Source: Streptomyces sp. CC0208 (GTDB taxonomy: Bacteria > Actinomycetota > Actinomycetes > Streptomycetales > Streptomycetaceae). Taken from it: 64,000 nucleotides of DNA. How positions within the stretch are numbered: position 1 is the first letter of the stretch; each line of letters starts with the position of its first letter. The translations under genes were made by a program, and so were the position numbers. Positions 10,801 to 26,215 of the stretch are shown piece by piece. The stretch lies in contig NZ_CP031969.1 in NCBI RefSeq assembly GCF_003443735.1, forward strand, positions 1,550,001-1,614,000, written 5' to 3'. The notes beneath the pieces are model-generated. The model worked only from the letters and a program-made list of their open reading frames with translations. It did not search any database and was not told the origin of the DNA.

Positions 10801-10818
10801 CGCTTGGCCGTTGAACGC

Positions 10819-10856
10819 CCGAGGGGCCCGAACCGGTGACGGTTCGGGCCCCTCGG
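10819..10856 (+). terminator. strong intrinsic terminator after pssA
   Basis: A perfect 17-bp stem (10819-10835 with 10840-10856) closed by a GTGA tetraloop. It begins 18 bases past the pssA stop and separates that operon from the convergent glycerate kinase gene, so it can serve both strands. No U-tract follows, as is common in Streptomyces. Confidence 0.8.
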
Positions 10857-10940
10857 ACGTGTGTCCGGCTGGAGGCGAGATGACGCCGGTGCTGGACGCG
10901 TACCGGCTGTCGGGGCCGCGCGTCAGTGATGTGGTTCGGG

Positions 10941-12071
10941 TCAGACCAGGAAGTCCCGGCCGATCCGCTCCGCCACGTCCTCCAGGATCGGGCCCGCCTC
11001 GGCGATGCAGCGCTGGATGTCGGGCTCGGCGTCGGTGAGGGGGTAGACGCGGCGGATGCCCGCCCGGCCGAGGGCCTCCGGGGGGAGGGCGAGGCGGCCG
11101 CACACGGCGACGACCTCCTTGTCCTTCGCACGGGCGGCCGCGGCGACGCCCGCCGGGGCCTTGCCGTGCAGGGTCTGCTCGTCGAGGGAGCCCTCGCCGG
11201 TGATCACCAGATCCGCCCACTCCAGCGCGGGCGCGAAGCCGAGGACGTCGAGCATGACGTCGATGCCCGGGCGGAACCGGGCGCCGAGCAGGAGGGCTCC
11301 GTAGCCGATGCCGCCGGCCGCGCCCGCACCCGGCGAGGCGGCGTACTCGGCGGCCTTCGCACCGACGGCCTCCTCCAGCACCTTCGCGTAGTGGGCGAGG
11401 GCGTTGTCCAGTGCCTCCACGTCGTCCGGCGAGGCGCCCTTCTGCGGGCCGTAGACCGCGGGGGCGCCCTTGGGACCGGTCAGCGGGTTGTCGACGTCGC
11501 TGGCCAGGATGAACTCGACGGACGCGAACCGCGGGTCAAGGCCCGACAGGTCGGCCGAGGCCAGGTCGGCGAGGCCACCGCCGCCCGGGGCCACGGGCTC
11601 GCCGTCGGCGTCCAGGAAACGGGCACCGAGCGCGGAGAGCATTCCGGCGCCGCCGTCGTTGGTGGCGCTGCCGCCGACCCCGAACACGATCGTGCGGGCA
11701 CCCGCGTCCAGCGCGGCGCGCAGGAGCTCCCCGGAGCCGTACGTCGACGCCGTGAGCGGGGCGAAGACACCCGCCGGCAGCCGCTGGAGGCCGCTGGCCT
11801 CGGCCATCTCTACGACGGCGGTGTCCCCGCGGACCGCGAAGGCGGCGGTGATCTCCTGGCCGAGGGGCCCGGCGACCGCCACCTCCCGGCGCTCGAAACC
11901 GGCCGCGACCGCCGCGGCGACGGTGCCGTCACCGCCGTCGGCGACGGGCAGCGACTCGACCTCCAGGTCCGGCACGACCCGGCGCAGCCCGGCCGTCACC
12001 CGCTCGGCGACCTGCACGGCCGTCAGCGAGCCTTTGAACTTGTCCGCGGCGATGAGCACGCGCTGTGTCAC
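10941..12071 (-). CDS. glycerate 2-kinase (GarK/GlxK family)
   Basis: The 376-residue protein opens with VLIAADKFKGSLTA and contains LPVADGGDGTVAA, FGVGGSATNDGGAGML and GEGSLDEQTLHGKAP, all hallmarks of the glycerate kinase type 1 family. It phosphorylates glycerate for entry into lower glycolysis. GTG at 12071 is preceded by AAGGGGA, which decided the start; a GTG/ATG-like start further upstream (12107) has no such site. A link to glyoxylate produced by the nearby malyl-CoA lyase is plausible but inferred. The 284 bases between it and the DsbA-like gene (12072-12355) show no convincing gene. Confidence 0.88.
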   Translation of the reverse strand: MTQRVLIAADKFKGSLTAVQVAERVTAGLRRVVPDLEVESLPVADGGDGTVAAAVAAGFERREVAVAGPLGQEITAAFAVRGDTAVVEMAEASGLQRLPAGVFAPLTASTYGSGELLRAALDAGARTIVFGVGGSATNDGGAGMLSALGARFLDADGEPVAPGGGGLADLASADLSGLDPRFASVEFILASDVDNPLTGPKGAPAVYGPQKGASPDDVEALDNALAHYAKVLEEAVGAKAAEYAASPGAGAAGGIGYGALLLGARFRPGIDVMLDVLGFAPALEWADLVITGEGSLDEQTLHGKAPAGVAAAARAKDKEVVAVCGRLALPPEALGRAGIRRVYPLTDAEPDIQRCIAEAGPILEDVAERIGRDFLV

Positions 12072-12355
12072 GATTTCCCCTTGCTCTCCGGGCCTCTCGC
12101 ACGTCAAGGCCAGTCGCGCCGCTGCGACCTTAACCGCACACGCCCCCCGGAGTCATGCACCGACCAGCCCCTGAGAAGGCCCCGTGAACCCTCTGTGCGG
12201 TGCTCCGGAACGGGGTGAACCGGAGCTATGACCCTTGTGGGCACTGAGCCAGAGCCTGGACGCGGACTGGCCGAGGCTTTCCTCGTCGTCGAGCTGCGCG
12301 ACATGAGCCGAGCAGGGCGAAGGTGTGGGGCGGCCGAAGACCGGGGCGTCGCCCG

Positions 12356-13174
12356 TCAGTCGGATCCGACGAGCTTCCGTAGCCACGAGGTGTCCTGCTG
12401 CCACGGGATGATCCGGTCGCCCGACACGACGGTGGGCGTGCCGAAGGCCTTGCCGCTGCCCGTGCCCTGCCACAGCGACCTGTCGGCGGCGGCCCTGGTG
12501 CTGTTGGCGTGGATGCGGTCGTCGTACCGGCCGGCGTCGCCGAGAGCGGTGACGTCGTCGACGGGGACCTGGAGGCGTTCGGCGAGGTCGAGCAGTTGTC
12601 CGTCGGTCCAGCCCGCGCTGCCCTCCTTCGGCTGGGTCCGCAGCAGGCTGTAGTGGAAGTCCATGAACTTCCTCGGGTCCTTCGCGGCCACCGCGAGCGC
12701 CACGTTGGCCGCGCGTTGTGAGTAGCCCGGCGGGTTCGACAGCGGGTTGAGCAGGTCGAGCATGTGGTACTCGACCTTGATGCGGCCGGCCTCCAGCTCC
12801 CGCTCGATGGCGGTGAAGTACTGCTTCTCGAACTGGCCGCACACCGGGCAGAGGAAGTCCTCGTAGATGTCGATCGACACCTCGGCGTCCTCCCGTCCCA
12901 CCCGCACGGTCCCGGTCCCCTCGTCCAGTTCGACCGGGTAGGAGGACTTGGTCGCCAGGGAACTGGCCGAGATCACAGTGTTCGCCACCCTGTCCCGCTC
13001 ATTGCCCTGGACCACCGTGCCGACGGTGACGGCGAGCGCGAGCACGGCGCCCACCACGAGGGCGACGACCCGGCCGTTGCGGGGCGGTCGCGGGGCAGGG
13101 GGTGGGCGCCGGGGTCCGCTCGGCTGTCCCGGTTCGGCCTGCCGCGCGAGGGCGGTCCGGCGGGTGAGAGCCAT
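12356..13174 (-). CDS. membrane-anchored DsbA-like thiol oxidoreductase of the lasso cluster
   Basis: The 272-residue protein has a proline-rich cytoplasmic tail, one membrane helix at about residues 36-56, and an extracytoplasmic thioredoxin-fold domain with active site C109-P-V-C112 and the cis-proline loop GTPTVV. It fits a disulfide-introducing DsbA-type enzyme. It starts three bases after the MauE-like gene and closes the lasso operon, so it most likely oxidises the two disulfides predicted in the four-cysteine precursor core. General secreted-protein folding is the alternative. No VKOR-type partner is seen; the MauE protein may reoxidise it. Confidence 0.8.
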   Translation of the reverse strand: MALTRRTALARQAEPGQPSGPRRPPPAPRPPRNGRVVALVVGAVLALAVTVGTVVQGNERDRVANTVISASSLATKSSYPVELDEGTGTVRVGREDAEVSIDIYEDFLCPVCGQFEKQYFTAIERELEAGRIKVEYHMLDLLNPLSNPPGYSQRAANVALAVAAKDPRKFMDFHYSLLRTQPKEGSAGWTDGQLLDLAERLQVPVDDVTALGDAGRYDDRIHANSTRAAADRSLWQGTGSGKAFGTPTVVSGDRIIPWQQDTSWLRKLVGSD

Positions 13175-13177
13175 GGT

Positions 13178-13666
13178 CTACTTCCCTTCTGTGACGGGCG
13201 ACGCGGAACGAGCCGAATGCCGGGCCAGCAGGCCGTCGGCCGACAGCCGGGTCGCGGGGCGCCGGACCAGGACGAGTGCGAGAGCGAGGAAGCCGAGGTC
13301 CCGGGCGATCTCCATCGGGTACTCGGTCCGGCCCGCGGACACCTGGCCCCCGCCGCCGAAGCAGCCGCAGTCGATGGAGAGTCCGCGCGCCCAGGCCTGG
13401 ACGATGCCCGCGATGAAGGCGACGAGTACGCCCACCGACAGGGCCGCGGCGGCCCGGGTGCCGACGCCCAGGAGCAGCAGGAGCCCCAGCCCCAGCTCCA
13501 GGAAGGGCAGCACGGCGGCGACCGTGCTCGTGAGCTGGTCGGGCATCACGTCGAAGGCGGCCACGGCGATGTACGTCTGGCCCGGGTCCATGGCCTTGGC
13601 GACACCCGACGCGATCCACAGGCCGGCGAGGCCCAGTCGGCACACGGTACTGATGATGACGTTCAC
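13178..13666 (-). CDS. MauE/DoxX-like membrane protein, partner of the DsbA-like enzyme
   Basis: A 162-residue protein with about four membrane helices and a Cys pair in DCGCFGGGG, as in MauE (methylamine utilisation) proteins that support disulfide formation. GTG 13666 has AAGGGGA upstream. It sits between the lasso exporter permease (35 bases away) and the DsbA-like gene (3 bases away), so a role in passing electrons away from the oxidoreductase is inferred. DoxX-like transport or quinone functions cannot be excluded from the sequence. Confidence 0.75.
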   Translation of the reverse strand: MNVIISTVCRLGLAGLWIASGVAKAMDPGQTYIAVAAFDVMPDQLTSTVAAVLPFLELGLGLLLLLGVGTRAAAALSVGVLVAFIAGIVQAWARGLSIDCGCFGGGGQVSAGRTEYPMEIARDLGFLALALVLVRRPATRLSADGLLARHSARSASPVTEGK

Positions 13667-13701
13667 TCGTGTCCCCTTACTCGGCTTACTCGCTACTCGG
13701 C

Positions 13702-14586
13702 TTATTCGGTGCGGGAGAACCGGCGAGCGGCCCCCAGTACGGCGAGCGCGGCGATGGCCGCGATGACGCCGAGTTCCAGGGCGACCGGTGGGGACCAGCC
13801 TCCCCAGGTGGGCCCTGCCGCCCGGCCGCCGTACTCCGCGCCGATCCCGGGAAGGGTGCGGCGGATCGCGTCGACGGCGTAGGTGAGCGGGTTGACGTTG
13901 ACCGCGAAGCCGAGCCAGCCGGGCAGGCCGCCCACCGGGAACATCGCGCCTGAGGTGAAGAGCAGCGGCATCATCCCGAGGCTGACCGCGACCTGGAACG
14001 TCTCGATGCGTTTCATGGCCACGGCGGCCAGCACCGCCAGGCTGGTGAACACCAGGGAGATGAGCGCGAGTTCCGGAAGGACGAGCAGGAGCCGCGGCTC
14101 GTACGGGATGTCCGCCACCCAGGCAAGGGCCACCACCATCGCCCCGTAGACCGTGCCCGCCGCGGCCCCGCCCAGACAGACGCCGAGGATCAGCGCACCA
14201 CGCCGTACCGGTGCGACGAGCATCTGGCGCAGCAGCCCGGACTTGCGGTCCCACACGATCGATATGCCGACCGCGATCGCCGGTGCCTGAACGGACATCA
14301 GGAGGACGCCGGGGTACAGGAAGGTCCGGTACTGGCGCATGCCGTCACCGGCCGAACCCGGGGAGGAACTCATCCCGGTGCCCAGAACGACCAGGAACAG
14401 CAGCGGAGTGAGCAGTCCCATGGCCAGGCGTACCGGATTACGGGTCAGGCGGGTCATTTCGCGCTGCCACAGCACGCGCACGGCCCGGAGGTTGGAGTGG
14501 GACGAGACCCGGGTCGAGGGCGGAGCGGCCGTCTCCCGGGGCGGGCGGGGTGCGGTCGTCCCGGAAGAGGGTTCTGTGCGGAGCAT
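13702..14586 (-). CDS. ABC-2 type exporter permease (DrrB-like), lasso cluster
   Basis: The 294-residue protein has six predicted membrane segments and the ABC-2 signature around NVNPLTYAVDAIRRTLPG. ATG 14586 has AGGAGA upstream; the longer frame reading back into the ATPase gene was rejected. It starts five bases after the ATPase stop and so pairs with it. Position just downstream of the lasso maturation genes suggests export of the finished peptide or self-protection. The 3' end contains short repeats of ACTCGGCTTA near 13679-13706. Confidence 0.83.
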   Translation of the reverse strand: MLRTEPSSGTTAPRPPRETAAPPSTRVSSHSNLRAVRVLWQREMTRLTRNPVRLAMGLLTPLLFLVVLGTGMSSSPGSAGDGMRQYRTFLYPGVLLMSVQAPAIAVGISIVWDRKSGLLRQMLVAPVRRGALILGVCLGGAAAGTVYGAMVVALAWVADIPYEPRLLLVLPELALISLVFTSLAVLAAVAMKRIETFQVAVSLGMMPLLFTSGAMFPVGGLPGWLGFAVNVNPLTYAVDAIRRTLPGIGAEYGGRAAGPTWGGWSPPVALELGVIAAIAALAVLGAARRFSRTE

Positions 14587-14591
14587 GGGCG

Positions 14592-15569
14592 CTATCTCCT
14601 TGCCACGTGGTCGGTGAGTGCCCGTGGGCCGGTGTCCGTGTCGCGGATGGTGCGGCCCGTGTGGTGCAGGAAGACGTCGTCCAGAGTGGGTGGCGTGACC
14701 GTGACCGAGTGCACGGGCACGCCGATCTCCGTGCACAGCCTGGGCACCATCGCGGCACCGTCGGCGACGCGCAGTCGCACGCCGTCGGCTCCGTGTTCCG
14801 GCTCCAGGCCGAAGGTGTCGCGCAGTGTCCGGGTCGTCAGCGCGTCATCGCCGGTGCGCAGGGTGACGAGATCCGCGCCGACGACCGTCTTCAGTTCCGC
14901 CGGGCCGCCCTGCGTCACGAGCTGTCCACGGTCCATGATCGCGATGCGGTCGCAGTGCTCGGCCTCCTCCAGGTGGTGCGTGGTCAGGAACACGGTGGTC
15001 CCCTGCTCCCGCCGGAGCCGGATCAGGTACTCCCAGATCGCGTTCCTGGTCTGCGGGTCGAGACCGGTGGTCGGCTCGTCGAGGAAGAGCAACCGGGGGC
15101 CGTGCATCAGGCCTCGGACGATCTCCAGACGTCTGCGCATACCGCCGGAGAAGGTGCGCACCAGGGTGTCCCTGCGGTCTGAGAGGTCGACAAGGTCGAG
15201 CAGCATGTCGATCAGGCCGGGCACCGCGCGCCTGGGGACGCCGAAGAGGTCCGCCTGGAAGCGCAGGTTCTCGGCGGCGGTGAAGTCGCCTTCCAGCGTG
15301 GACTCCTGGAACACCAGGCCGATCTGACGTCGTACGCGGTGCGGGTGCCTCGCCACGTCATGGCCCGTCACCTCGGCCCGGCCCGCCGTCGGTCGCAGCA
15401 GGGTGGTCAGCACACCGATGGTGGTCGTCTTGCCCGCGCCGTTGGGTCCGAGGAATCCGAAGATCTGTCCCGACTCGACGGTGAGGTCCAGCCCCGACAC
15501 CGCCTCGGTGGTTCCGTAGCGCTTCGCGAGACCCTCTGTTCGTACGGCGATGCCGTCGCGTTCGCTCAC
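14592..15569 (-). CDS. ABC exporter ATPase (DrrA-like), lasso cluster
   Basis: A 325-residue nucleotide-binding protein with Walker A GPNGAGKTTT near residue 41, signature FSGGMRRRLEI and Walker B LLFLDEPTTGLDP, plus the C-terminal extension typical of DrrA/CcmA-type drug exporters. The GTG start overlaps the stop of the B2 gene (GTGA), placing it firmly in the lasso operon. With the following permease it forms a complete exporter, the usual D component of lasso clusters, although as a separate ATPase and permease rather than a fused protein. Confidence 0.87.
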   Translation of the reverse strand: MSERDGIAVRTEGLAKRYGTTEAVSGLDLTVESGQIFGFLGPNGAGKTTTIGVLTTLLRPTAGRAEVTGHDVARHPHRVRRQIGLVFQESTLEGDFTAAENLRFQADLFGVPRRAVPGLIDMLLDLVDLSDRRDTLVRTFSGGMRRRLEIVRGLMHGPRLLFLDEPTTGLDPQTRNAIWEYLIRLRREQGTTVFLTTHHLEEAEHCDRIAIMDRGQLVTQGGPAELKTVVGADLVTLRTGDDALTTRTLRDTFGLEPEHGADGVRLRVADGAAMVPRLCTEIGVPVHSVTVTPPTLDDVFLHHTGRTIRDTDTGPRALTDHVARR

Positions 15570-16063
15570 GGCTGCCTCCCCTCGTGACGGCCCGCCCGAG
15601 CCTGGCGACGTGCCTGACGGCGGCCTTGGTGAAGGTGTTGGTCACGGTCTTGGTGACGCACGCTCAGAACCGTGTGGAACAAGGTCATGTCACCGGGCTC
15701 GCCGATCGCGGTGCCGTCCACCTCGACCCAGGCGTGCGCGCCGAACGGCCGGGTGCGGAACCCCGAGCACCAGTCGGGCCAGCGGCCGGCCAGGCGGCAC
15801 AGCAGCGCCGTGGCCACCGAGCGCTGCAGACAGCCCGCGATGCCCGCGCAGCGCAGGCTGACCGTCACCACCGCCTGTCGGGCGGCCAGCGCCCGCTCCG
15901 CGTCGGCCGGGCGGCTTCCCCGGCTCACGAACCGCAGGACCTGGCACAGCCGCCGCGGCGGCAACCGGACCAGCAGTCGTGCCGCCCCGGCCGCGGACCG
16001 GGCGGTGACACGTCTGCGCCACGGCAGCGGAACCGAGCCTTCGACCGCAACAGGGATGCTCAT
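15566..16063 (-). CDS. lasso peptide leader protease (B2, transglutaminase-like)
   Basis: The 165-residue protein matches lasso B2 proteins: RCAGIAGCLQRS with the catalytic cysteine at C78, then FGAHAWVEVDG with H110 and D116 completing a Cys-His-Asp triad. It removes the precursor leader so that the cyclase can form the macrolactam. It overlaps B1 by ATGA. After LSV near residue 135 a basic, Arg/Gln-rich tail of about 30 residues follows that is unusual for the family and overlaps the ATPase start. The core match is strong; the tail could reflect drift of the stop codon. Confidence 0.88.
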   Translation of the reverse strand: MSIPVAVEGSVPLPWRRRVTARSAAGAARLLVRLPPRRLCQVLRFVSRGSRPADAERALAARQAVVTVSLRCAGIAGCLQRSVATALLCRLAGRWPDWCSGFRTRPFGAHAWVEVDGTAIGEPGDMTLFHTVLSVRHQDRDQHLHQGRRQARRQARAGRHEGRQP

Positions 16064-16323
16064 GAGGCGCTCACCACGAGTCGTGCCCTGGTCAGCGCGT
16101 CGAGCAGGGCACGCACGTCACCGACGGCTCGCTCGGCCGCGTCGGGGGACTGCCGGGAGAGGTGCGTGGCGACGTCCTCCGGCGAACGGCCTTCCAGCAG
16201 CAGCCGTACGGTGGCGGCGCCGGACCTGTTGAGCTGCCAGAACCGGCCGACGCGCTGGTCGAGCAGCACCATCCCGCCCTCGACCTCGGTCAGCGTGACA
16301 TGGGGGGCCAGAGCGACGGTCAT
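16060..16323 (-). CDS. lasso peptide leader-recognition protein (B1, PqqD-like)
   Basis: An 87-residue PqqD-fold RiPP recognition element: HVTLTEVEGGMVLLDQRVGR followed by FWQLNRSGAATVRLLLEG. Such proteins bind the leader peptide and hand it to the B2 protease. Splitting of B into B1 and B2 is normal for actinobacterial clusters. ATG 16323 overlaps the cyclase stop, and its own stop overlaps the B2 start, so C-B1-B2 are translationally coupled. Confidence 0.9.
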   Translation of the reverse strand: MTVALAPHVTLTEVEGGMVLLDQRVGRFWQLNRSGAATVRLLLEGRSPEDVATHLSRQSPDAAERAVGDVRALLDALTRARLVVSAS

Positions 16324-18155
16324 CGTGATCCACCTCCAGAGTGCGCGGCGGGTGCCGAAGCGAGGGTGCGCAGCCATGACTCGCAGGCCAGCGTGTTCTG
16401 GAACGGGCCCAGATGTCTGGCGTCCGGCACGGGCCGGGTCAGCGCCTCCCGCAGGGCGCCGGCGTCGACCAGCCCCCGGTCGGCGGCCCGCAGGTCGGCA
16501 CACAACTCGCGCAGTCGGCGTTTGTTGTCGTTCAGCCCCCGGAACATCTCGGCGCTGAACTCGCCCTTGTCCGGCCGGTCGAGAAGGGCGTCGGGGACGA
16601 GACCACGCATCGCGGCGGTGAGCAGGGGCTTGAAGCGACCGGGTACGGCCCTGTCCTCGACCCGGACCGACAGCGCGGCCTCGACGACCCGGTCGTCCAG
16701 GAACGGGGCCTCCCACGTGACGCCGTAGGGCTCCGTGTACCGGCCCAGCTGCCGGACGGTCGAGCCCTCCAGCACAAGGGACTCCAGCACACGGTGCCGG
16801 AACCGGTCCGGGTCGAGGGGCACCGGGGCGGTTTCCGCGGTCTCCCGCAGCAGCCGCCGGACCGTGTCGACGGTGTCGGGGGTCGCCCAGGGCGGCATCC
16901 TCGGGTCGATGCTCCAGCCCAGGGCGAGTCGGCCGGCGGGAGGTCTGGAACAGGTGAGGGTGTCCGCCGCCCCGCCGACCGCCTGTGCGAAACCGGTACG
17001 GTCGGTCAGCCCGCGCGCCATGGCGAACAGACCCCACCGGTTGAGAAGTTGATAGCGACGCAGCACCGGCAGGCTGCGGAGCGGGTGCCGGTGTGCCAGG
17101 GACCACAGGATGCTGGGCATGATCCCGAAGAGTTCGTCGCCGCCGAGGCCGGTCAGGTGCGTCCTCGACCCGTGTTCCGCGACGGTGTGGGCGAGCCCTT
17201 CGAGATGGGTCCGTCCGCCGTGCCAGGGCAGTGGCCCCTCGCCGAGGTGCCCGTCGGAGACCGGCAGGTCGAACCAGCTGCTCGCGCCCTGGGAGGGCAC
17301 CGTCAGATGGCGGGCGTCGGTCAGCCGCTCGGCCGCCAGCCGCGCCCATCGCGCGTCCTCGTTGGCCCGGTCCAGCGGCTCCACGTGATAGGTGAGCAGG
17401 TCGGCGCCCTCGGCCGCCGCCACGAAGCACAGGGTGGTGGAGTCCATGCCGCCGGACAGGTCCGCGCTGACCGTGCCGGGACCGGCGGTCCGTACGCCGA
17501 CCGCGTCGTGCAGGGCGGCCCGCAGGGTTCCGGCGGCCTCGGGCAGGGGTACCTCCGGGGCGGGCGGCGACCACCAGTGAACGGTGCGGGCCGGGCCGGT
17601 CGGGCCGAGTAGCGTCCAGTGGCCGACGGGAGGAACCGACACCGAGCTCCACAGGCCGCGCTGGGACAGCGGCCACGGCGGCTGCGGGGAGAGCAGCCGC
17701 AGCGCGAGACTGTCCTCGTCGACGGTGCTCCCGGTCGGCCCGACCAGTCGGTCGGGCCGGTCGGCGGCGACCGGCACACCGCGGACGGTGCCCAGGAAGA
17801 GCTGCCGGGCCGTGGACACCGAACCCTGGGCGCGGACCTGCCCGTCCATGGAAGCGATGAGATAGGGGTTCCCCGGCAGCGAGCGGGCCACCGCGTCGAG
17901 GCCGTGGAGTGTCCGTGCCCGGCCGAGCACCCGCTCGACCGTGGGGTGGTCGATCCGGGTGGGACCCAGCAGGACCAGCCGTCGTGCGCCGGCGGTCACC
18001 ACCGTCAGCTCGTGCGGCTCCCAGCGGCCCAACAGCCACGGCCGTCCCGAGGGGTGACGGATCATCTCGTCGTCGGAGCGGGCCAGGTGGTCCGGGAGCA
18101 GCCTCGCGGCTTCCTCGCGGTCCGGCAGAATCAGGAAGTCCATGCGTGTGTTCAC
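16320..18155 (-). CDS. lasso peptide cyclase (C, asparagine-synthetase-like)
   Basis: The protein (611 residues from GTG 18155, 607 from ATG 18143) has an N-terminal Ntn-like domain without the catalytic Cys2 of true asparagine synthetases, then an ATP-pyrophosphatase domain with the PP-loop SGGMDS near residue 232 and TGLGGDELFG. It adenylates the ring aspartate side chain and closes it on the core N-terminus. ATG 18143 (MDFLILPDRE) has GAGGTGA upstream and may be the real start. It follows the precursor gene after two hairpins that likely reduce read-through. Confidence 0.92.
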   Translation of the reverse strand: MNTRMDFLILPDREEAARLLPDHLARSDDEMIRHPSGRPWLLGRWEPHELTVVTAGARRLVLLGPTRIDHPTVERVLGRARTLHGLDAVARSLPGNPYLIASMDGQVRAQGSVSTARQLFLGTVRGVPVAADRPDRLVGPTGSTVDEDSLALRLLSPQPPWPLSQRGLWSSVSVPPVGHWTLLGPTGPARTVHWWSPPAPEVPLPEAAGTLRAALHDAVGVRTAGPGTVSADLSGGMDSTTLCFVAAAEGADLLTYHVEPLDRANEDARWARLAAERLTDARHLTVPSQGASSWFDLPVSDGHLGEGPLPWHGGRTHLEGLAHTVAEHGSRTHLTGLGGDELFGIMPSILWSLAHRHPLRSLPVLRRYQLLNRWGLFAMARGLTDRTGFAQAVGGAADTLTCSRPPAGRLALGWSIDPRMPPWATPDTVDTVRRLLRETAETAPVPLDPDRFRHRVLESLVLEGSTVRQLGRYTEPYGVTWEAPFLDDRVVEAALSVRVEDRAVPGRFKPLLTAAMRGLVPDALLDRPDKGEFSAEMFRGLNDNKRRLRELCADLRAADRGLVDAGALREALTRPVPDARHLGPFQNTLACESWLRTLASAPAAHSGGGSR

Positions 18156-18176
18156 CTCGTCACGGCCGTTCAGTAA

Positions 18177-18223
18177 CCTGACGGTGGAGGCAGGCTGTTG
18201 GCCCGCCTGCCTCCACCATCAGG
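18177..18223 (-). terminator. attenuator hairpin between lasso precursor and cyclase
   Basis: A 19-bp stem (18177-18195 with 18205-18223; one G-U pair) with a 9-base loop lies between the precursor stop and the cyclase start. A second hairpin (CCGCCC 18234-18239 with GGGCGG 18245-18250) lies between it and the precursor stop. Together they would let precursor mRNA outnumber enzyme mRNA, a common need in RiPP operons. Confidence 0.7.
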
Positions 18224-18266
18224 TCGTCGGACTCCGCCCTCAGGGGGCGGTCAGCCGATCAGTGGG

Positions 18267-18401
18267 TCAGACACAGATCCAGGCGGTGCCGCAGCCGAGG
18301 AAGTCGGTGCAGTCTCCGCCCCACACACAGCGCGTGAGTTCGGCGTAGTCACCGATCTCGATGAGCTCGGGCGCCTCGTACAGCTCGTCGGTCGAGGTCA
18401 T
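18267..18401 (-). CDS. class I lasso peptide precursor (siamycin type; core matches sviceucin from memory)
   Basis: A 44-codon gene too short for routine ORF calling, with ATG 18401 and AGGGGA upstream. The leader is 24 residues and carries the B1-binding pattern YxxPxLxxxGxxxxxT (Y8, P11, L13, G17, T23), with Thr at the penultimate position. The predicted core is CVWGGDCTDFLGCGTAWICV. Cys1 and Asp9 would form the nine-residue macrolactam ring; Cys1-Cys13 and Cys7-Cys19 would form the two disulfides of class I lasso peptides. I recall this core as that of sviceucin from Streptomyces sviceus. C, B1, B2 and export genes follow on the same strand. Confidence 0.95.
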   Translation of the reverse strand: MTSTDELYEAPELIEIGDYAELTRCVWGGDCTDFLGCGTAWICV

Positions 18402-18433
18402 GGGTGTCCCCTGTCCGTTCGTTGTCGAGATGA

Positions 18434-18538
18434 GCACCGGCCGGTGCCCTCCGGCAACGTAGGTCGCCCGATGTCCCGGGCGCCCGGGACGGTTGTCCTC
18501 TCACGGGTCCCGGAGCGGTCCCGGGTCACACGTCCCGG
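18434..18538 (-). promoter_or_regulatory. palindrome-rich control region upstream of the lasso precursor
   Basis: Between the permease stop (18526) and the precursor start lie a perfect 14-base palindrome GCACCGGCCGGTGC (18434-18447) and a perfect 18-base palindrome GTCCCGGGCGCCCGGGAC (18473-18490). GTCCCGG recurs at about 18508, 18519 and 18532, the last copies overlapping the end of the permease gene. A TACGTT -10-like element lies between the palindromes on the minus strand. This looks like a multi-site operator for the cluster regulators; the 18-base palindrome could also act as a terminator for the permease transcript. Confidence 0.5.
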
Positions 18539-19302
18539 GAGCGCAGGGCGATGTGGCCGCCGATGACCGCGGCGGTCGTCCACCCGAGCAGCACGGCCAG
18601 CCCGGCGCCCGCGGACAGGGTCGAGTCGCCCTGCTCGGCCACCTCCATGATCTGCGCGCCCGCCTGGGTGGGGAGGTAGTAGGCGATCGTCTTGAGGCTG
18701 GGGATGTTGAGCATGAAGGTCGGCAGGATGAAGTGGAACGGGATCAGCACGCTGAGGGACATCGCCGGGCTCCGCAGGATGACCGCCACCCCGGCGCTGA
18801 AGGTCCAGATGAGGGTCAGCTGGACGACCGCGCCCACCAGGGCGCGCGGCACCCCCGGGCTGTCCAGCGATACGCCGATGGAGCCGAGGGCCTGCTCGGA
18901 GGCGAGGAAGGCGACGAAAACGGTGACCACGGACACCCCGAGCGTCAGCAGCGCGCCGACGGTGAGCTTCGCCCCGTAGAGCAGGCCGCGCTGGGGCACG
19001 GCCAGCAGCGAGGTCCGGAGCATCCCGCCGGAGTGTTCGCCCGAGACGAGGAGGGCGGCGAAGACCACCAGGACCAGCTGGCCGATGCTCACTCCGACGA
19101 ACCCGGAGTTGGCGGGGTGGAAGTCGGGCCGGACCAGCGGGCTGTCCTCGGCGATGGCCTTCTTGACGGAGAGGCCGTTGGTGACGCCGATGCCGACGCT
19201 GAGCACGAAGGTGAGGAGCAGGGTCCAGGACGTGGAGCGGACGGTGCGCGCCTTGCTCCATTCGGAACGGACCACCGCTGTGAGGGAGTTCGTAGACATC
19301 AT
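18526..19302 (-). CDS. ABC-2 type transporter permease, second lasso-cluster transporter
   Basis: A 258-residue permease with six membrane segments, beginning SLTAVVRSEWSKARTVRSTSW as in the ABC-2 membrane proteins of bacitracin/lantibiotic-immunity type transporters. The start overlaps the preceding ATPase stop (ATGATG around 19297-19302), so the two form one transporter. It lies just upstream of the precursor gene and divergent from the sensor kinase, an arrangement typical of self-immunity or cell-envelope-stress exporters; that role is inferred. Confidence 0.8.
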   Translation of the reverse strand: MMSTNSLTAVVRSEWSKARTVRSTSWTLLLTFVLSVGIGVTNGLSVKKAIAEDSPLVRPDFHPANSGFVGVSIGQLVLVVFAALLVSGEHSGGMLRTSLLAVPQRGLLYGAKLTVGALLTLGVSVVTVFVAFLASEQALGSIGVSLDSPGVPRALVGAVVQLTLIWTFSAGVAVILRSPAMSLSVLIPFHFILPTFMLNIPSLKTIAYYLPTQAGAQIMEVAEQGDSTLSAGAGLAVLLGWTTAAVIGGHIALRSRDV

Positions 19303-20207
19303 CGCTGCCCCGCCCTGAACTCGGCGGCCTGCGCGGTCAGCCGCATGAAGGCGTCCTCTAACGAACTGTGCTCGGTGGCCAGTTCATGGACCATCACGCC
19401 GTGGGTGGAGGCGATGCCGCCGACGGTCGGCGCGTCCACGCCCACGGCCATCACGGTTCCGTCGAGCTGCTTGTGGGAGCTGATGCCCTTCGCCTTCAGC
19501 AGCGACAGCAGGTGCTCCGCCTCCGGGGTGCGGACCCTGACCTTGGAGACGGAGTTGTCCTCGATGAAGCTGTTCATGTCGGTGTCGGCGAGGAGCCGGC
19601 CCTGGCCGATGATGACGAGGTGGTCGGCGGTCTGTGCCATCTCGCTCATCAGATGGCTGGACATGAACACAGTGCGTCCCTCGGCGGCCAACTCCTTGAC
19701 CAGCGTACGGATCCAGCGCACACCGTCCGGGTCGAGACCGTTGACCGGCTCGTCGAACAGGAGGATGTCCGGTTCGCCGAGCAGCGCGGTGGCGATGCCG
19801 AGTCGCTGTCCCATGCCGAGCGAGAACCCGCCGGTACGCCGGTCGGCGGCGTTGTCCAGTCCTGTCTGGGCCAGTACCTCGTCCACCCGTCGTCTGGGCA
19901 GCCGATTGCTCTCGGCGACACACAACAGGTGGTGATAGGCGGTACGTCCGGGGTGCGCGGACTTGGCCTCGAGCATCGCGCCCACCGTCCGCAGCGGTTC
20001 GCGCAACTGGCCGTACCGGCGCCCGTTCAGCAACACCTGTCCGGTGTCGGGGCGGTGCAGCCCGACCATGGCACGCATCGTCGTCGACTTCCCGGCACCG
20101 TTCGGGCCGAGGAAGCCCGTGACGCGCCCGGGTTCGGCCCGGAAGGAGAGCCGGTCGACGGCGAGGGCCGTCCCGTAACGCTTCGTCAGATCCTGTACCT
20201 CGATCAT
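19299..20207 (-). CDS. ABC transporter ATPase, second lasso-cluster transporter
   Basis: A 302-residue ATPase with Walker A GPNGAGKSTT near residue 36, signature FSLGMGQRLGI and Walker B ILLFDEPVNGLDPDG. The Leu in SLGMGQR in place of the usual SGG is frequent in bacitracin-export (BcrA) ATPases. I chose ATG 20207 (MIEVQDLTKRYG); an upstream ATG at 20258 has no convincing ribosome site. It is divergent from the histidine kinase across about 130 bases, as in BceAB/BcrAB systems where the kinase senses the peptide or its damage. Confidence 0.83.
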   Translation of the reverse strand: MIEVQDLTKRYGTALAVDRLSFRAEPGRVTGFLGPNGAGKSTTMRAMVGLHRPDTGQVLLNGRRYGQLREPLRTVGAMLEAKSAHPGRTAYHHLLCVAESNRLPRRRVDEVLAQTGLDNAADRRTGGFSLGMGQRLGIATALLGEPDILLFDEPVNGLDPDGVRWIRTLVKELAAEGRTVFMSSHLMSEMAQTADHLVIIGQGRLLADTDMNSFIEDNSVSKVRVRTPEAEHLLSLLKAKGISSHKQLDGTVMAVGVDAPTVGGIASTHGVMVHELATEHSSLEDAFMRLTAQAAEFRAGQR

Positions 20208-20338
20208 GCCGATCAGACTGTCGCGGCCCCGTGTACGGCACATCGGACCGCGGTCCACGAAGCGACCGTGGATCCGACCCTGGTCGTATGTCCCCGGTCC
20301 GATGCGGTCCCCGACGGGTCGGCCCTACCCTGGACCGG

Positions 20339-21547
20339 GTGTCGATCTCTGACCTGACCGTACGGTTCCCGCAGCGGCTCAGCCACCGGCAGTTGATCGG
20401 ACTGGACGCGGCCGCCTCGTTCGCGTATCTCACGATCCTCCTGCCGTTGGTGATCGCCGGTGCGGACGGTCCAGCGCGGGTGCCCCTGTGGGTCCGGTGC
20501 GCGTTGGTCGCGGCGACGGGGGTGCCGCTCGTGGTCCGTCGGCGGTGGCCCCGTCAGGTGTTCGTCCTCGTGTTGGCCGCCACCTTGTCCCAGGTGGTCC
20601 TCGGGATCGCCGTCGACCCCTTCGTCGCCGCGGCTTTCGCGCTGTATCCCCTGGCGCTGACAACGTCGTCGCAGCGTCTGGTCCCGACGCCCGCGGTGGC
20701 CATGCTCTGCGCGGCGGTCGTGCTGGCCGGAGTCGTGGCGGGGTCGCCCCGTTCCTGGCAGAACGGGGTGGGGTTCCTCGTGGTCGGCACCGCGATCCTC
20801 GGGGCGGTGTGGACCGCCGGCTTCGCGGTACGGGGACGGCGGACGCTGGCGCGGGTGGAGGCCGCACGGCGCGAGGAACAGGCCGTGCACCGCGAACGCC
20901 TGCGGATCGCCCGCGAACTGCACGACGTCGTCACCCACAGCATGGGGCTCGTCACCGTCAAGGCGAGCATCGCCAACCATCTGCTGGCCTCCCGCCCACA
21001 GGAGGCGCACGATGCGCTCAAGGTGATCGAGACCATCAGCAGGGAGGCCATGACGGAGATGCGCGGCATCCTGCGCGTCCTGCGCGTTCCGCCGGACGGC
21101 GAACCTGCCGAACCGGCCGATCTGGACCCGATGCCGGGCCTGTCCGACCTTCCGGCACTCGTCCGGCGGGCCGCGCACGCGGACGCCCGGATCGACCTGG
21201 TCATGGACCCTGACATCCGGGTACCGGACGGCATCGGCCTGGCCGGCTATCGCATCGTGCAGGAAGCGCTCACCAATGTGCTCGTCCATGCCGCGCCGAC
21301 CCGCTGCACCGTCCGGGTCGAGACGACCGCGGCCGACCTGCGCCTGGAGGTCCGCGACGCCGGACCGCCCGCCCGGGACCGGCGCCGCAGCAGGACGGGC
21401 GGCGGTCACGGCATCCCCGGAATGCGCGAACGGGCCATGATGTACGGCGGCAGTCTCACCGCCGCCCCGCATCCCGACGGCGGATTCCAGGTGACCGCGT
21501 GCCTGCCGTTCCTGCCTGCCCGTCCGACGTCCCGGGAGTCCCTGTGA
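20339..21547 (+). CDS. NarL-family sensor histidine kinase, lasso cluster
   Basis: From GTG 20339 the protein has 402 residues: an N-terminal block with about five membrane helices and no large extracytoplasmic sensor loop, a HisKA_3 dimerisation motif ARELHDVVTHS with phospho-acceptor H195, and an HATPase domain with GIPGMRERAMMYGG. It would phosphorylate the regulator encoded by the overlapping gene (GTGA). An upstream ATG at 20231 in the same frame adds sequence with no kinase similarity. Divergence from the second ABC transporter suggests it controls that transporter and perhaps the precursor. Confidence 0.87.
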   Translation: MSISDLTVRFPQRLSHRQLIGLDAAASFAYLTILLPLVIAGADGPARVPLWVRCALVAATGVPLVVRRRWPRQVFVLVLAATLSQVVLGIAVDPFVAAAFALYPLALTTSSQRLVPTPAVAMLCAAVVLAGVVAGSPRSWQNGVGFLVVGTAILGAVWTAGFAVRGRRTLARVEAARREEQAVHRERLRIARELHDVVTHSMGLVTVKASIANHLLASRPQEAHDALKVIETISREAMTEMRGILRVLRVPPDGEPAEPADLDPMPGLSDLPALVRRAAHADARIDLVMDPDIRVPDGIGLAGYRIVQEALTNVLVHAAPTRCTVRVETTAADLRLEVRDAGPPARDRRRSRTGGGHGIPGMRERAMMYGGSLTAAPHPDGGFQVTACLPFLPARPTSRESL

Positions 21548-22254
21548 CCGCCTCCGCCGCGACCCGGATCCTGATCGCCGAGGACCAGGCCCTGCTGAGC
21601 GGCAGCTTCCGCGTACTGGTCGACTCCGAACCGGATCTGACCACCGTGGGCGAGGCGAGCACCGGCGCCCAGGCCGTCGCCATGGCCCGCAGCGAACGCC
21701 CCGACGTCGTCCTCATGGACATCCGTATGCCCGAACTGGACGGCATCGAGGCCACCCGCCGTATCTGCGGATCACCGGCGACCGCCGGCGTACGGGTCCT
21801 CATCCTCACCATGTTCGACATCGACGAGTACGTCTTCGACGGCCTTCGCGCCGGGGCCAGCGGCTTCCTGCTCAAGGACACCCCGCCCGCCGACCTCCTC
21901 ACCGCCATCCGTGTCATCGCGGGCGGCGACGCCCTGCTGGCCCCCGCCGTGACGCGCCGTCTGATCGCCGAGTTCTGCCGACGCCCGGAGGCGCGCCCCG
22001 AAGGACGTCTCGACGGGCTCGCGTCCGCGCCCCGTGGCCTCGACGGGGTCACCGACCGCGAACGTGAGGTGCTTCTGCTGATCGCCGGAGGCCTGTCCAA
22101 CACGGAAATCTCCAACCGACTGCATCTGAGCCACGGCACCGTGAAAACCCATGTCGGTCGGCTCCTGGCCAAACTGGAGGCGCGTGACCGTGCCCAACTC
22201 GTCATCGCCGCCTACGAGTCCGGACTGGTCCGCCCCTCGAGTAAGGGACGGTGA
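21544..22254 (+). CDS. NarL/LuxR-type response regulator, lasso cluster
   Basis: A 236-residue regulator: receiver domain with acidic pair ED near residue 13, phospho-acceptor D59 in VVLMDIRMP, conserved Lys in LLKDTPP, and a C-terminal LuxR helix-turn-helix (LTxREREVLLLIAGGLSNTEIS-like stretch from about residue 170). It pairs with the upstream kinase through a GTGA overlap. The palindromes at 18434-18490 and the kinase/ATPase intergenic region are candidate targets. No terminator is obvious before the convergent LuxR-type gene. Confidence 0.88.
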   Translation: MTASAATRILIAEDQALLSGSFRVLVDSEPDLTTVGEASTGAQAVAMARSERPDVVLMDIRMPELDGIEATRRICGSPATAGVRVLILTMFDIDEYVFDGLRAGASGFLLKDTPPADLLTAIRVIAGGDALLAPAVTRRLIAEFCRRPEARPEGRLDGLASAPRGLDGVTDREREVLLLIAGGLSNTEISNRLHLSHGTVKTHVGRLLAKLEARDRAQLVIAAYESGLVRPSSKGR

Positions 22255-22292
22255 CGTGCCTCGGGTAAGCGACGGTGCGGCGCCGCAGGACG

Positions 22293-23030
22293 TCAACAGC
22301 CGAGTCCGGCCTCCTTGGCGCGAAGCGCCGCCTCGGTGCGATCGTTCACCTGGAGCTTCGCGAGGAGATGCGACACATGGTTGCGCACCGTCTTCTCGGA
22401 CAGCACCAGCGTCCTGGCGATTCTTCGGTTGGTGTAACCCCGGGCGAGAAAGTCGAGCACTTGCCTCTCCCGCTCGGTGAGAAACGGAAACGCGGCATTC
22501 GATGTCTCCGGCTGTGCACCGTCGAAGAAGGAGCTCAATCTTTCGGCGGTACCCACTCCGAAAGCCGCGCCTCCAGCGGCGATGACATGCAGGCAGCGCA
22601 GGATTTCCTGTTGAGACGCGCCCTTTCTCAGATAACCACGCACCCCGGCGCGTAATGCGGGGACAATCACGGCTTCCTCGTCGGCGCCGGACAATACCAG
22701 CACCCTGGTCCGAGCGGCCATGGTTGCCAGATCCTCGATCGAGCACCTGACCGGCACCCCATCCGCCCCCGTGAAGCACGGGTCCATCACGCAGACGTCC
22801 ACCGTCGCGCCCAGTAGCTCAAGCCGTGTGCCGACCGCACCGGCCGTGGCCGACTCGCCGACCAGGTCGACACCGGGACTGCTGTCGACCATGGCCCGAA
22901 TTCCCGCGCGGAATACCGGGTCACGATCGATGACGAAGATACGTACACCCTTCCCGCCGACGACATGACTTTCGTCATGAAAAGTTATGCTCTCCCGCGT
23001 TGCGCCGCTCATGACGCACCCACGGACCAC
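22293..23030 (-). CDS. orphan LuxR-type regulator with an atypical receiver domain
   Basis: The protein is 245 residues from GTG 23030 or 239 from ATG 23012. The C-terminus is a standard LuxR helix-turn-helix (FLTERERQVLDFLARGYTNRRIARTLVLSEKTVRNHVSHLL). The receiver-like N-terminus reads VIDRDPVFRAG where active receivers have VDDHP, so one of the two acidic residues needed for Mg2+ binding is Arg; the acceptor-site Asp (VMDPCF) and Lys (LRKGA) remain. Phosphorylation is therefore doubtful. Codon use is less GC-biased than in neighbours, consistent with transfer. It convergently follows the two-component system and likely regulates the lasso cluster. Confidence 0.82.
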   Translation of the reverse strand: MVRGCVMSGATRESITFHDESHVVGGKGVRIFVIDRDPVFRAGIRAMVDSSPGVDLVGESATAGAVGTRLELLGATVDVCVMDPCFTGADGVPVRCSIEDLATMAARTRVLVLSGADEEAVIVPALRAGVRGYLRKGASQQEILRCLHVIAAGGAAFGVGTAERLSSFFDGAQPETSNAAFPFLTERERQVLDFLARGYTNRRIARTLVLSEKTVRNHVSHLLAKLQVNDRTEAALRAKEAGLGC

Positions 23031-23761
23031 ATACAGGAGAGCCTTAAGATATACACAGAAACAACCATCGCCATACCCCCGTGACCATGCTCAAACGTGC
23101 CGCGCAAACAGCGAGGCACATATGTCAGCCATCTACCAGGGTAACCCCATGCTCCGCGACCGAGAAGTAACCACCGGAAGAAAGATGACCGAAAGCGACC
23201 GGCAACCGACACCTCCGCTCGAACGTCCCCTTTGCGCCCACCGCCACCAACGCCCACCATGCAACGCAAGGATGGCCAGCTCGAGAGGCCACGGAATCTG
23301 GCGGGATTCCAGCGGCGAATACTGGAACACATCATTCCGACCAGGTGATAACTGGCACCTTGTCTGAATTTTGCATGGGCCGTTGATTTCTGCGTGAGCG
23401 ATCTGCCGGAAGACGCACAGCAGTCAGAAGCACTCGCTCTGTCCAATCCGGGTGAGCGCGAGTTCGAGGTCCTCGTCTCGGTCGGGTGATCTGCCGGCCA
23501 GCCGGTCACGAGAACGCGGTATCCCGCACACCTCGCGGGGTGTCGAATCCAACCGAGCGCAGGAGGCCTCTGGTGCCGCAGTCCTCCGTACCGGCGCCGA
23601 TGTCGTACAACCAGGCTTCCCTGGGCGGGGCCGATCGTCCACGGAGTTGTGGCGACCTTGATCCGGCGGATCTCGCAGCGCCCGCGGCCGGTGCGAAGAG
23701 ACGCTGTGCTGCCACCTCTCACGAAGGCTCTCGCGAAGGCATCCAGTCGCCGCGCGGAGTC
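23031..23761. other. gene-poor, lower-GC flank of the lasso cluster
   Basis: About 730 bases without a convincing gene. Base composition is visibly less GC-rich than the rest of the window, notably around 23031-23400. Short open frames on both strands have no recognisable motifs. It may hold the promoter of the orphan regulator (near 23031-23060) and remnants of inserted or deleted DNA at the boundary between the lasso cluster and the conserved chromosome. Confidence 0.5.
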
Positions 23762-24298
23762 ATGTTTGCGATGCAGTCGACCGCGGCCGGCCCCGCCAGC
23801 GGGCAGAAGGCGGAACGGGGTTTCAGCGTGTACGGGGCGATGTGGGCGACGGCGCTGATCTCGGCGGCGTTCACCGCCGGCACCGTGCGCCACGCCGTGG
23901 ACCAGGCGCTCGCGGTGATCCCGGCGAGCAGCCGCCTCGCCCGCACGGTACGCCGGGTGGCGTCCCTGCACGACACCCGGATGACCTGGGAGGACACGCT
24001 GACCACGGTCGCCGAGGAGACCGCGGGGCTCGGCTGGATCCACCCGATCCCCAACGCGGCCGTCCTGACCGCGGTTCTGCTGTACGGCGACGGCGACTTC
24101 ACCCGCACCATCACGCTCACCGTCCGGGGCGGCCTGGACGGTTCGGTGGCCGGGGTGCTCACCGGGGCGGAGGCGATCCCGGACCAGTGGATGGTCCCGC
24201 TGGAGGACCGGGTGCGCAGCGCGGTGTTCAGGTTCGACGGGGTGCACATCAGCGAACTGGCCGAGCGGACGGTGCGGTTGGCGGGGGCGGAGGCCTGA
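23762..24298 (+). pseudogene. ADP-ribosylglycohydrolase remnant (C-terminal part only)
   Basis: From about residue 19 the frame resembles the second half of ADP-ribosylglycohydrolase (ARH/DraG) proteins: VYGAMWATALISAAFTAG, then HAVDQALAVIPASSRLAR, then TLTVRGGLDGSVAGVLTG followed by AIPDQWMVPLEDRV. The N-terminal half with the first metal-binding residues is absent, and the second metal motif, normally GLDTDSNGAT-like, is shortened to GLDGS, removing the paired aspartates. The piece is therefore unlikely to be catalytic. It lies at the right edge of the lasso cluster and probably marks an insertion or deletion boundary. An uncharacterised short protein cannot be fully excluded because the frame stays open. 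Confidence 0.65.
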
Positions 24299-24403
24299 GG
24301 CGGCCGGGCCGGGGCGCGCGGAAGCCGCGGGGGCGCCCCCTGAGCACCGTGACCACCTGCTGAGCCGGTGAAGGCGGCCGCGGATGCTGGTTACCCTTCG
24401 AGG

Positions 24404-24898
24404 ATGACCACCACCCCTGACTTCGCCGCGTACATCGCCGGTCTTCCCCGGATCCTCGCCGGTGCCGCCGCTCTCTTCCGTGACGCCTCGGGCCGGGTCC
24501 TGCTCGTCGAGCCCAACTACCGTGAGGGCTGGGCGCTTCCGGGCGGCACGATCGAGTCGGACGAGGGCGAGACCCCGCGCCAGGGGGCGCGTCGCGAGAC
24601 GCTCGAGGAGATCGGGCTCGACCGCGACCTCGGCCGGCTGCTCGCGGTGGACTGGGTGTACCGGCCGACCTGGCCGCCGCTGGTGGCATACCTCTACGAC
24701 GGCGGTGTCCTCGGCGAGGACGAGCTCAAGGCGATCCGGCTCCAGGAGGAGGAGCTGCTGTCATGGCGGCTCGTGCCACGCGAGGAGCTGGCCGAGTATC
24801 TGCCCGACGGGCTGGGCCGCCGGGTCCTGGTCGCGCTGGACGTGCTGGCGGAGGGGTCGGGGACGGCGGAGCTGGAGAACGGGCACCGGGTGGGCTGA
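24404..24898 (+). CDS. Nudix hydrolase
   Basis: A 164-residue protein with a Nudix box ending in RRETLEEIGL, matching REx2EExG. The loop between the first glycine (LPGG) and the conserved glutamate is two residues longer than the consensus (GTIESDEGE). The family hydrolyses nucleoside diphosphate derivatives such as ADP-ribose, NADH or oxidised nucleotides; the substrate is not evident. ATG 24404 was preferred to a GTG 36 bases upstream because similarity begins there. It precedes a Sir2 deacylase by 91 bases; both relate to NAD/ADP-ribose chemistry, though a functional link is inferred only. Confidence 0.85.
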   Translation: MTTTPDFAAYIAGLPRILAGAAALFRDASGRVLLVEPNYREGWALPGGTIESDEGETPRQGARRETLEEIGLDRDLGRLLAVDWVYRPTWPPLVAYLYDGGVLGEDELKAIRLQEEELLSWRLVPREELAEYLPDGLGRRVLVALDVLAEGSGTAELENGHRVG

Positions 24899-24989
24899 TC
24901 CAGCGCGTGTCGGGCCGCATGGTTGCTCGCGCCCTGGCGGTGGGATATCCACTCGCCGCACCCGGATCACCCGTCCTACCCTCGGCATC

Positions 24990-25727
24990 ATGACCAAGCC
25001 CCTCGTCGCCCTCCTCAGCGGCGCCGGAATCTCCACCGACTCCGGGATCCCCGACTACCGCGGTCCGAACGGGCTGTGGCGCAAGGACCCCGAGGCCGAG
25101 AAGCTCGTGACGTACGACTACTACATGGGCGATCCGGAGATCCGCCGCCGCTCGTGGCGGATGCGGCGGGCGAACGGCGCGCTGACGGCCGAGCCCAACG
25201 CGGCGCACGTGGCGGTGGCCGAGCTGGAGAAGTCCGGGGTGCCGGTGCGGGTGATCACGCAGAACGTGGACGGACTGCACCAGCTCGCCGGGATGCCCGC
25301 CCGAAAGGTCCTCGAACTGCATGGCACCGCACGGCAGGTGGTGTGCACGAGGTGCCACGCACGCGGTTCGATGGAGGACGCGCTCCTGCGCGTCGAGGCC
25401 GGGGAGGCGGACCCGCCGTGCCTGACCTGCGGCGGCATCCTCAAGTCGGCGACCGTGATGTTCGGCGAGCGTCTCGACCCCGTCGTCCTCGGCGAGGCCG
25501 TCGCCATCACCAAGGCGTGCCAGATCTTCATCGCCGTCGGCACCACCCTCCAGGTCCAGCCGGCGGCGGACCTCGCGGGTGTCGCCGCCGACCACGGCGC
25601 CCGGCTCGTCATCGTCAACGCCGAGCCGACACCGTACGACGACCGCGCCGACGAGGTGATCCGGGAGCCGATCGGCACGGCACTGCCCGAGCTGCTGCGC
25701 AGGGTGGGTGCCGGGAGCGGCTGCTAG
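24990..25727 (+). CDS. cobB: Sir2-type NAD-dependent protein deacylase
   Basis: The 245-residue sirtuin carries the NAD-binding GAGIST at residues 10-15, catalytic QNVDGLH, and zinc-binding pairs CTRC and CLTC. Like bacterial CobB it would remove acyl groups from lysines using NAD+, releasing O-acyl-ADP-ribose. The conserved tail VNAEPTPYDDRADEVI fits class III-like bacterial sirtuins. Its stop TAG shares the palindrome CTAG (25724-25727) with the stop of the convergent ogt gene, so there is no spacer or terminator between them. Confidence 0.92.
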   Translation: MTKPLVALLSGAGISTDSGIPDYRGPNGLWRKDPEAEKLVTYDYYMGDPEIRRRSWRMRRANGALTAEPNAAHVAVAELEKSGVPVRVITQNVDGLHQLAGMPARKVLELHGTARQVVCTRCHARGSMEDALLRVEAGEADPPCLTCGGILKSATVMFGERLDPVVLGEAVAITKACQIFIAVGTTLQVQPAADLAGVAADHGARLVIVNAEPTPYDDRADEVIREPIGTALPELLRRVGAGSGC

Positions 25728-26206
25728 AACAGCGCCGCCCCCCGCTCGAAGTCCAGCAGCCGCTGCTTGCGCTCCAGTCCGCCGCCGTAGCCCGTGAGAC
25801 TGCCGTCGGCGCCCACCACGCGGTGGCAGGGGACGATGATGCCGATCGGGTTCCTGCCGTTGGCGAGGCCGACCGCGCGGGAGGCCTTGGGGTTGCCGAG
25901 GGCGTCGGCGAGTTCGCCGTAGGTGCGGGTCTCGCCGTGCGGGATCCGGCGCAGCTGTTCCCAGACCGTGCGCTGGAACGGCGTTCCGTGCAGGCGCAGT
26001 TCCAGGGTGAACTCCTTCAACTCGCCCTTGAAGTAAGCCGTCAGCTGGTCCTCGGCCTCCTTGGACCATCCGTCGTCCGGCGTGCCGAAGGTCTCCTCCG
26101 GCGGGCGGTGGCGCTGGTCGGTCATGTAGAGGCCGCACAGGACGCCGTCGTCGGCGACGAGGGTCAGAGGACCGTAGGGGCTGTCGATCACGGTGTGCTG
26201 CTTCAT
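25724..26206 (-). CDS. ogt: methylated-DNA-protein-cysteine methyltransferase
   Basis: A 160-residue alkyltransferase with the acceptor motif PCHR (C127 in IIVPCHRV), the helix-turn-helix VGLANGRNP and the conserved TPFQRTVWEQLRRIPHGETRTYGELA. It repairs O6-alkylguanine by suicide transfer to C127. It lies nine bases after the AdaA/AlkA fusion gene on the same strand, giving a compact DNA-alkylation repair operon. In this cluster it supplies the O6-methyltransferase activity that the upstream fusion lacks. Confidence 0.93.
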   Translation of the reverse strand: MKQHTVIDSPYGPLTLVADDGVLCGLYMTDQRHRPPEETFGTPDDGWSKEAEDQLTAYFKGELKEFTLELRLHGTPFQRTVWEQLRRIPHGETRTYGELADALGNPKASRAVGLANGRNPIGIIVPCHRVVGADGSLTGYGGGLERKQRLLDFERGAALF

Positions 26207-26215
26207 CGGACGTCC

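Follow-up and report, generated by a model that had tools for sequence, protein, structure and literature searches.

The gene at 18267-18401 (-) of the window (the whole stretch of DNA that was analysed, 64,000 nucleotides) was found to encode the precursor of a class I lasso peptide, as described below. With very high confidence, we assign this gene, sviA, to the cluster that makes sviceucin (SSV-2083) in Streptomyces sviceus, where its product is predicted to be matured by B1, B2 and C, locked by disulfides and exported. Judging from the sequence comparisons, the cluster in the window and the one characterised for sviceucin in S. sviceus itself are almost certainly one and the same, already known and not new. 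Sviceucin, a knot-shaped antibacterial peptide from S. sviceus, has previously been isolated, structurally solved and cloned, and its production and activity have been published. The original description is that of Li et al. 2015 (doi 10.1021/acschembio.5b00584). The reading of the raw sequence that this analysis followed up had picked out this gene of 44 codons and had given its product the right name.

Translation of 18267-18401 on the minus strand gives MTSTDELYEAPELIEIGDYAELTRCVWGGDCTDFLGCGTAWICV followed by a stop, a lasso precursor of 44 residues. This agrees, exact to the base, with the 44-residue minus-strand peptide that the earlier note had placed in the gap before the cyclase. The leader is encoded at 18330-18401, the core at 18270-18329 and the stop at 18267-18269, as assigned from the translation, the identity to PDB chain 2ls1_A and the NCBIfam lasso leader domain NF033521, which matches the precursor at 30.8 bits (cut-off 19). 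The leader has 24 residues, among which Y8, P11, L13, G17 and the penultimate T23 form the pattern YxxPxLxxxGxxxxxT, and the core is CVWGGDCTDFLGCGTAWICV, with 20 residues, Cys at 1, 7, 13 and 19, Asp at 9 and CV at its end; both the leader pattern and these core positions had been claimed in advance and could be read directly in the translation. A leader of this kind with its penultimate Thr, four cysteines at these positions with an acidic residue at 9, and genes for B1 (PqqD-like), a B2 protease and an Asn-synthase-like C close by all place sviA in class I. The spacing had been called siamycin-type, and the frame of Cys 1/7/13/19 with Asp 9 is indeed common to siamycin-type cores. The siamycin subgroup itself has a 21-residue core ending in FW, and sviA, with 20 residues ending in CV, falls outside it. 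The third codon positions of sviA are 87% G+C. Searched against its own genome (9,320,089 bases), the precursor had a single match at E <= 0.001, which was sviA itself (E 1.7e-27).

The core is identical in 20 of 20 residues to 2ls1_A. The deposited molecule name of this chain is 'Uncharacterized protein'; 2ls1 is named sviceucin, a class or type I lasso peptide, in passages of PMC7549694, PMC13352647 and PMC5974421. The core also equals the sequence that PMC12427821 gives for SSV-2083 in its Table 1, where the pairs Cys1-Cys13 and Cys7-Cys19 are marked. As the two sequences are identical, we take both names to stand for one compound. For the core with one lactam and two disulfides, the calculated [M+H]+ is 2083.82, which agrees with the name SSV-2083 and thus supports the identity. 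Also, the mass spectrometry tag of SSV-2083 from S. sviceus given in PMC4154637 is readable as LGCGTAWICV, which is core residues 11-20. What had been a guess, that the core is sviceucin, is therefore borne out by both 2ls1 and the printed SSV-2083, and with it the statement that the cluster is known if the core is that of sviceucin. No evidence counting against the identity with sviceucin was found.

Small open reading frames are common in G+C-rich DNA, and 111 of at least 40 amino acids overlap 11000-26000, so one that resembles a lasso precursor could arise by chance. Here, the lasso cyclase, B1 and B2 lie directly downstream of sviA, and the exact match of its core to a solved natural product (2ls1_A) rules this explanation out for practical purposes; we give it a negligible probability. 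Another possible explanation is that the same core is found in a different species or strain, so that the window holds a sibling of the described cluster. The source species was assessed with the crystallised acetyltransferase 4bmh, whose gene came from S. sviceus ATCC 29083 according to PMC3919268, which also gives the primers and the P-loop sequence. The window's own genome has 94 GNAT matches, and 40 stretches around part of them were inspected with frames filtered by composition; the P-loop of 4bmh was seen in one inspected stretch, L053. The genome encodes a protein identical to 4bmh in 240 of 240 residues, and by this one marker protein the producer is S. sviceus. The reverse primer site of PMC3919268 has an exact match in the genome and the forward primer matches in the 17 bases after the start codon, which is GTG in the genome and ATG in the primer.

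These matches argue against a sibling cluster, as does the finding that the sviceucin core is absent elsewhere: among the genomes searched, it was found in one of 392 Streptomyces and in one of 199 relatives, each time in the window's own genome (G000). In favor of a sibling, a single protein identity cannot separate strains within one species; the full identity to 4bmh means that the window comes from S. sviceus or from an organism not distinguishable by this marker. As a marker, one identical protein fixes the species well and the strain less so. We consider a sibling cluster very improbable, and the sviceucin cluster of S. sviceus remains the preferred reading.

The genes around sviA agree with this reading. 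C, B1, B2, D3, D4, E and F lie downstream of sviA on the same strand, and D2 and D1 lie upstream, followed by the regulators. sviC, at 16320-18155 (-), encodes an Asn-synthase-like lasso cyclase of 611 amino acids from GTG (PF00733, E 3.8e-40) and scores 218.7 bits against NF033561, below the cut-off of 300. Its start is more likely to be the ATG at 18143 (MDFLILP) than the GTG at 18155 because most relatives begin with MEF or MDF. sviB1, at 16060-16323 (-), encodes a PqqD-like leader recognition protein of 87 amino acids (PF05402; NF033530 97.3 bits, cut-off 70), and sviB2, at 15566-16063 (-), a transglutaminase-like leader protease of 165 amino acids (PF13471; NF033537 115.9 bits, cut-off 33). 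Searched with the lasso B2 family, the genome gives a single match, which is the one next to sviA. The ABC transporter ATPase sviD3 (14592-15569, -) was assigned by Pfam and is followed by the ABC-2 permease sviD4 (13702-14586, -), whose start was inferred near the D3 end and whose Pfam run used the longer open reading frame 13702-14736. Next come sviE, a DoxX/MauE-type membrane protein of 162 amino acids (13178-13666, -), and sviF, a DsbA/thioredoxin-like protein with a CPVC motif (12356-13174, -). On the other side of sviA are the ABC-2 permease sviD2 (18526-19302, -) and the ABC transporter ATPase sviD1 (19299-20258, -), with a probable start inside, at MIEVQDLT.

Beyond the transporter genes, a sensor histidine kinase (HisKA_3, HATPase_c) at 20231-21547 (+) and a LuxR-type response regulator at 21499-22254 (+) are, by position, sviG and sviR1, named after aboG and aboR1 of PMC6409603. 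The names D1-D4, G and R1 are positional throughout and follow the aborycin cluster table in PMC6409603 and the account of svi that PMC9266682 gives in section 4. A second LuxR-type response regulator, possibly sviR2, lies at 22293-23030 (-). The extent of 12356-23030 proposed in the earlier note is about right, with uncertainty as to whether this last regulator belongs to the cluster. A glycerate kinase gene at 10941-12071, on the far side of sviF, and an ADP-ribosylglycohydrolase-like gene at 23486-24298 (+), adjoining the regulators, are probably outside the cluster. Eight further open reading frames had no Pfam match and are probably shadow frames: 9694-11220 (-), 10926-12218 (+), 14497-15327 (+), 20213-21472 (-), 21456-22205 (-), 23009-24247 (-), 24249-24689 (-) and 24726-27674 (-). 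In a consensus scan of 12000-24300, no sigma-70-type promoter was seen, with 0.4 expected by chance. The scan gave two terminator-like sites against an expectation of 2.6, and both of them lie at 23187-23203, outside the gap between sviA and sviC.

In the proposed biosynthesis, B1 would bind the sviA leader and B2 would cut after Arg24, with Thr23 in the penultimate position. C would then activate Asp9 and link its side chain with the Cys1 amino group, giving a nine-residue ring that traps the tail, and disulfides Cys1-Cys13 and Cys7-Cys19 would lock the fold as class I. The mature peptide would be exported by the ABC transporters. As published, it is weakly to moderately active against Gram-positives and inhibits the sensor kinases FsrC and VanS. 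Leader removal and cyclisation are described in general terms in the literature. We infer these maturation steps for the window copy because its core is identical and from the gene order, and the copy is presumed to be expressed and processed like published sviceucin. Production in S. coelicolor has used the cosmid-borne native cluster (PMC5974421), with a reported yield of 15 mg/L (PMC7549694). According to section 4 of PMC9266682, deletion of sviF leaves disulfide formation intact and the product is then found only in mycelium. In PMC11872507, sviceucin and siamycin I are described to inhibit FsrC and to bind VanS, which sviceucin also inhibits. Both restored the action of vancomycin in some resistant strains, and sviceucin did not restore it in most of the VanA strains shown there. 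Sviceucin matters as a sensor-kinase inhibitor that restores vancomycin in several resistant strains, as already published in that paper.

Relatives of the precursor were looked for in genomes and contigs. Matches at E <= 0.001 were seen in 41 of 392 Streptomyces genomes. All 10 genomes with E below 1e-17 have a four-cysteine core, and the remaining 31 have weaker best matches of 4.1e-9 or above; in loci from 20 of these 31, no four-cysteine pattern was found behind a leader-like Y/FxxPx[LIVM]. With the single precursor as query, 6 of 199 relatives matched at E <= 0.001, and two of them, the window's own genome and G001, have a four-cysteine core. The contig scan with the three-row alignment A1 gave 11 loci, all Streptomyces; it relied on one pattern, C[TEN]DF[AL]GCG, so other cores can be missed. 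Altogether, 23 rows held a four-cysteine precursor, several being the same gene or sequence twice, and gave nine distinct cores. Among them, L002/L021 and L018 have a siamycin-type core with E8, CLGVGSCEDFAGCGYAVVCFW, and L024 has one with T8 and V11, CLGVGSCTDFVGCGYAVVCFW. Fragments of the E8 core, the T8 and V11 core and two CLPSGDC cores had no match in the text of the papers searched, which is a weak test in that the printed sviceucin core was also missed, since its printed form in PMC12427821 marks disulfides inside the string. The missing match for these four cores is no claim of novelty. The sources on lasso peptides disagree on arcumycin, with which the CLPSGDC sequence may or may not be identical: PMC12427821 lists it in Table 1 as class II, with a sequence that lacks Cys, and PMC9266682 has it as class I; the title of the original arcumycin paper, as given in reference lists, also says class I. 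One of the two, PMC12427821 or PMC9266682, seems to be wrong on this point.

A strong hairpin with a 21-pair outer stem lies between sviA and sviC at 18175-18225 (-) and is a possible attenuator or mRNA end. It has no T run and was thus not counted as a terminator in the consensus scan. The 128-nucleotide stretch that contains it, 18142-18269, after the sviA core, folds with a z of -6.33, and none of 200 shuffles was as good. Similar hairpins with other sequences were found after most class I precursor genes examined. For this comparison, L001 (the window gene) and rows identical in the first 90 downstream bases were dropped from the 23 rows, leaving 17 regions, and the background for each was 200 stretches of the same locus at equal scan steps with the region itself excluded. 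At most 10 of the 200 background stretches fold as well in 12 of the 17 regions, and at most 20 in 14, with the siamycin-type rows not independent because they are close relatives. For the window region, the count was one of 200. The hairpin was not remarkable in three regions, L008 (23/200), L009 (38/200, with a poly-G stretch) and L026 (53/200). L009, a contig of a mangrove soil Streptomyces, has 23 consecutive G between precursor and cyclase, just after the precursor gene, possibly an assembly artefact that hides its hairpin. As a kind, the motif is known, since PMC5974421 reports that in many lasso clusters a terminator-like inverted repeat separates the precursor gene from those downstream. 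The hairpin could be under selection in class I clusters and control how much precursor is made relative to the enzymes, with its place and fold kept and its sequence differing among the siamycin-type, sviceucin and CLPSGDC groups, as if replaced and not inherited. We offer this tentatively and hold it to be somewhat less probable than even.

Among known systems, siamycin I and II, MS-271, aborycin (RP 71955), specialicin and humidimycin share with sviA the frame of Cys 1/7/13/19 and Asp 9 and the leader pattern. Their cores have 21 residues and end in CFW, in contrast to the 20 residues ending in CV of sviA. Like the window, the MS-271, specialicin, aborycin and humidimycin clusters are described as having B1/B2/C, D and E/F genes. 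Several siamycin-type clusters also have a CapA-like gene, which in the review consulted is a D-Trp epimerase in MS-271. In the window, the cluster has sviE and sviF and no CapA-like epimerase gene, as is the mark of svi. PF09587 (CapA-like) has two matches in the genome, one at 903906-904652 that passes the Pfam cut-off and one at 6658840-6659325 that falls short of it. Neither lies in the cluster, and the gene that passes is about 0.66 Mb away.

Two unnamed class I precursors, L026/L048 (CLPSGDCPDFLGCGRAIWCI) and L027/L049 (CLPSGDCPDFLGCGRALWCI), resemble sviA in having a 20-residue four-cysteine core with Asp 9 but differ from it in core residues. Cyclase, B1, B2, ABC ATPase and permeases were matched by Pfam in L048; in L049, Pfam covered the permease adjoining a PAP2 gene and two neighbours. 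In these two Streptomyces clusters, the gene that immediately follows the transporter permease encodes a PAP2 phosphatase (12535-13272 in L048, 13344-14075 in L049), at the place taken in svi by sviE and sviF. It is a candidate self-protection gene, given that siamycin I binds lipid II according to PMC7168211. In L050, whose core is siamycin-type, a DoxX/DsbA pair stands after the permease, as in svi. No difference was seen between the window and sviceucin/SSV-2083 (svi, Streptomyces sviceus, PDB 2LS1) in core, gene set and one marker protein, which were the features compared. The two are alike in all three, with a core match of 20/20, and the components of the svi cluster given in section 4 of PMC9266682 (A, B1, B2, C, D1-D4, E, F and regulators) are all present in the window.
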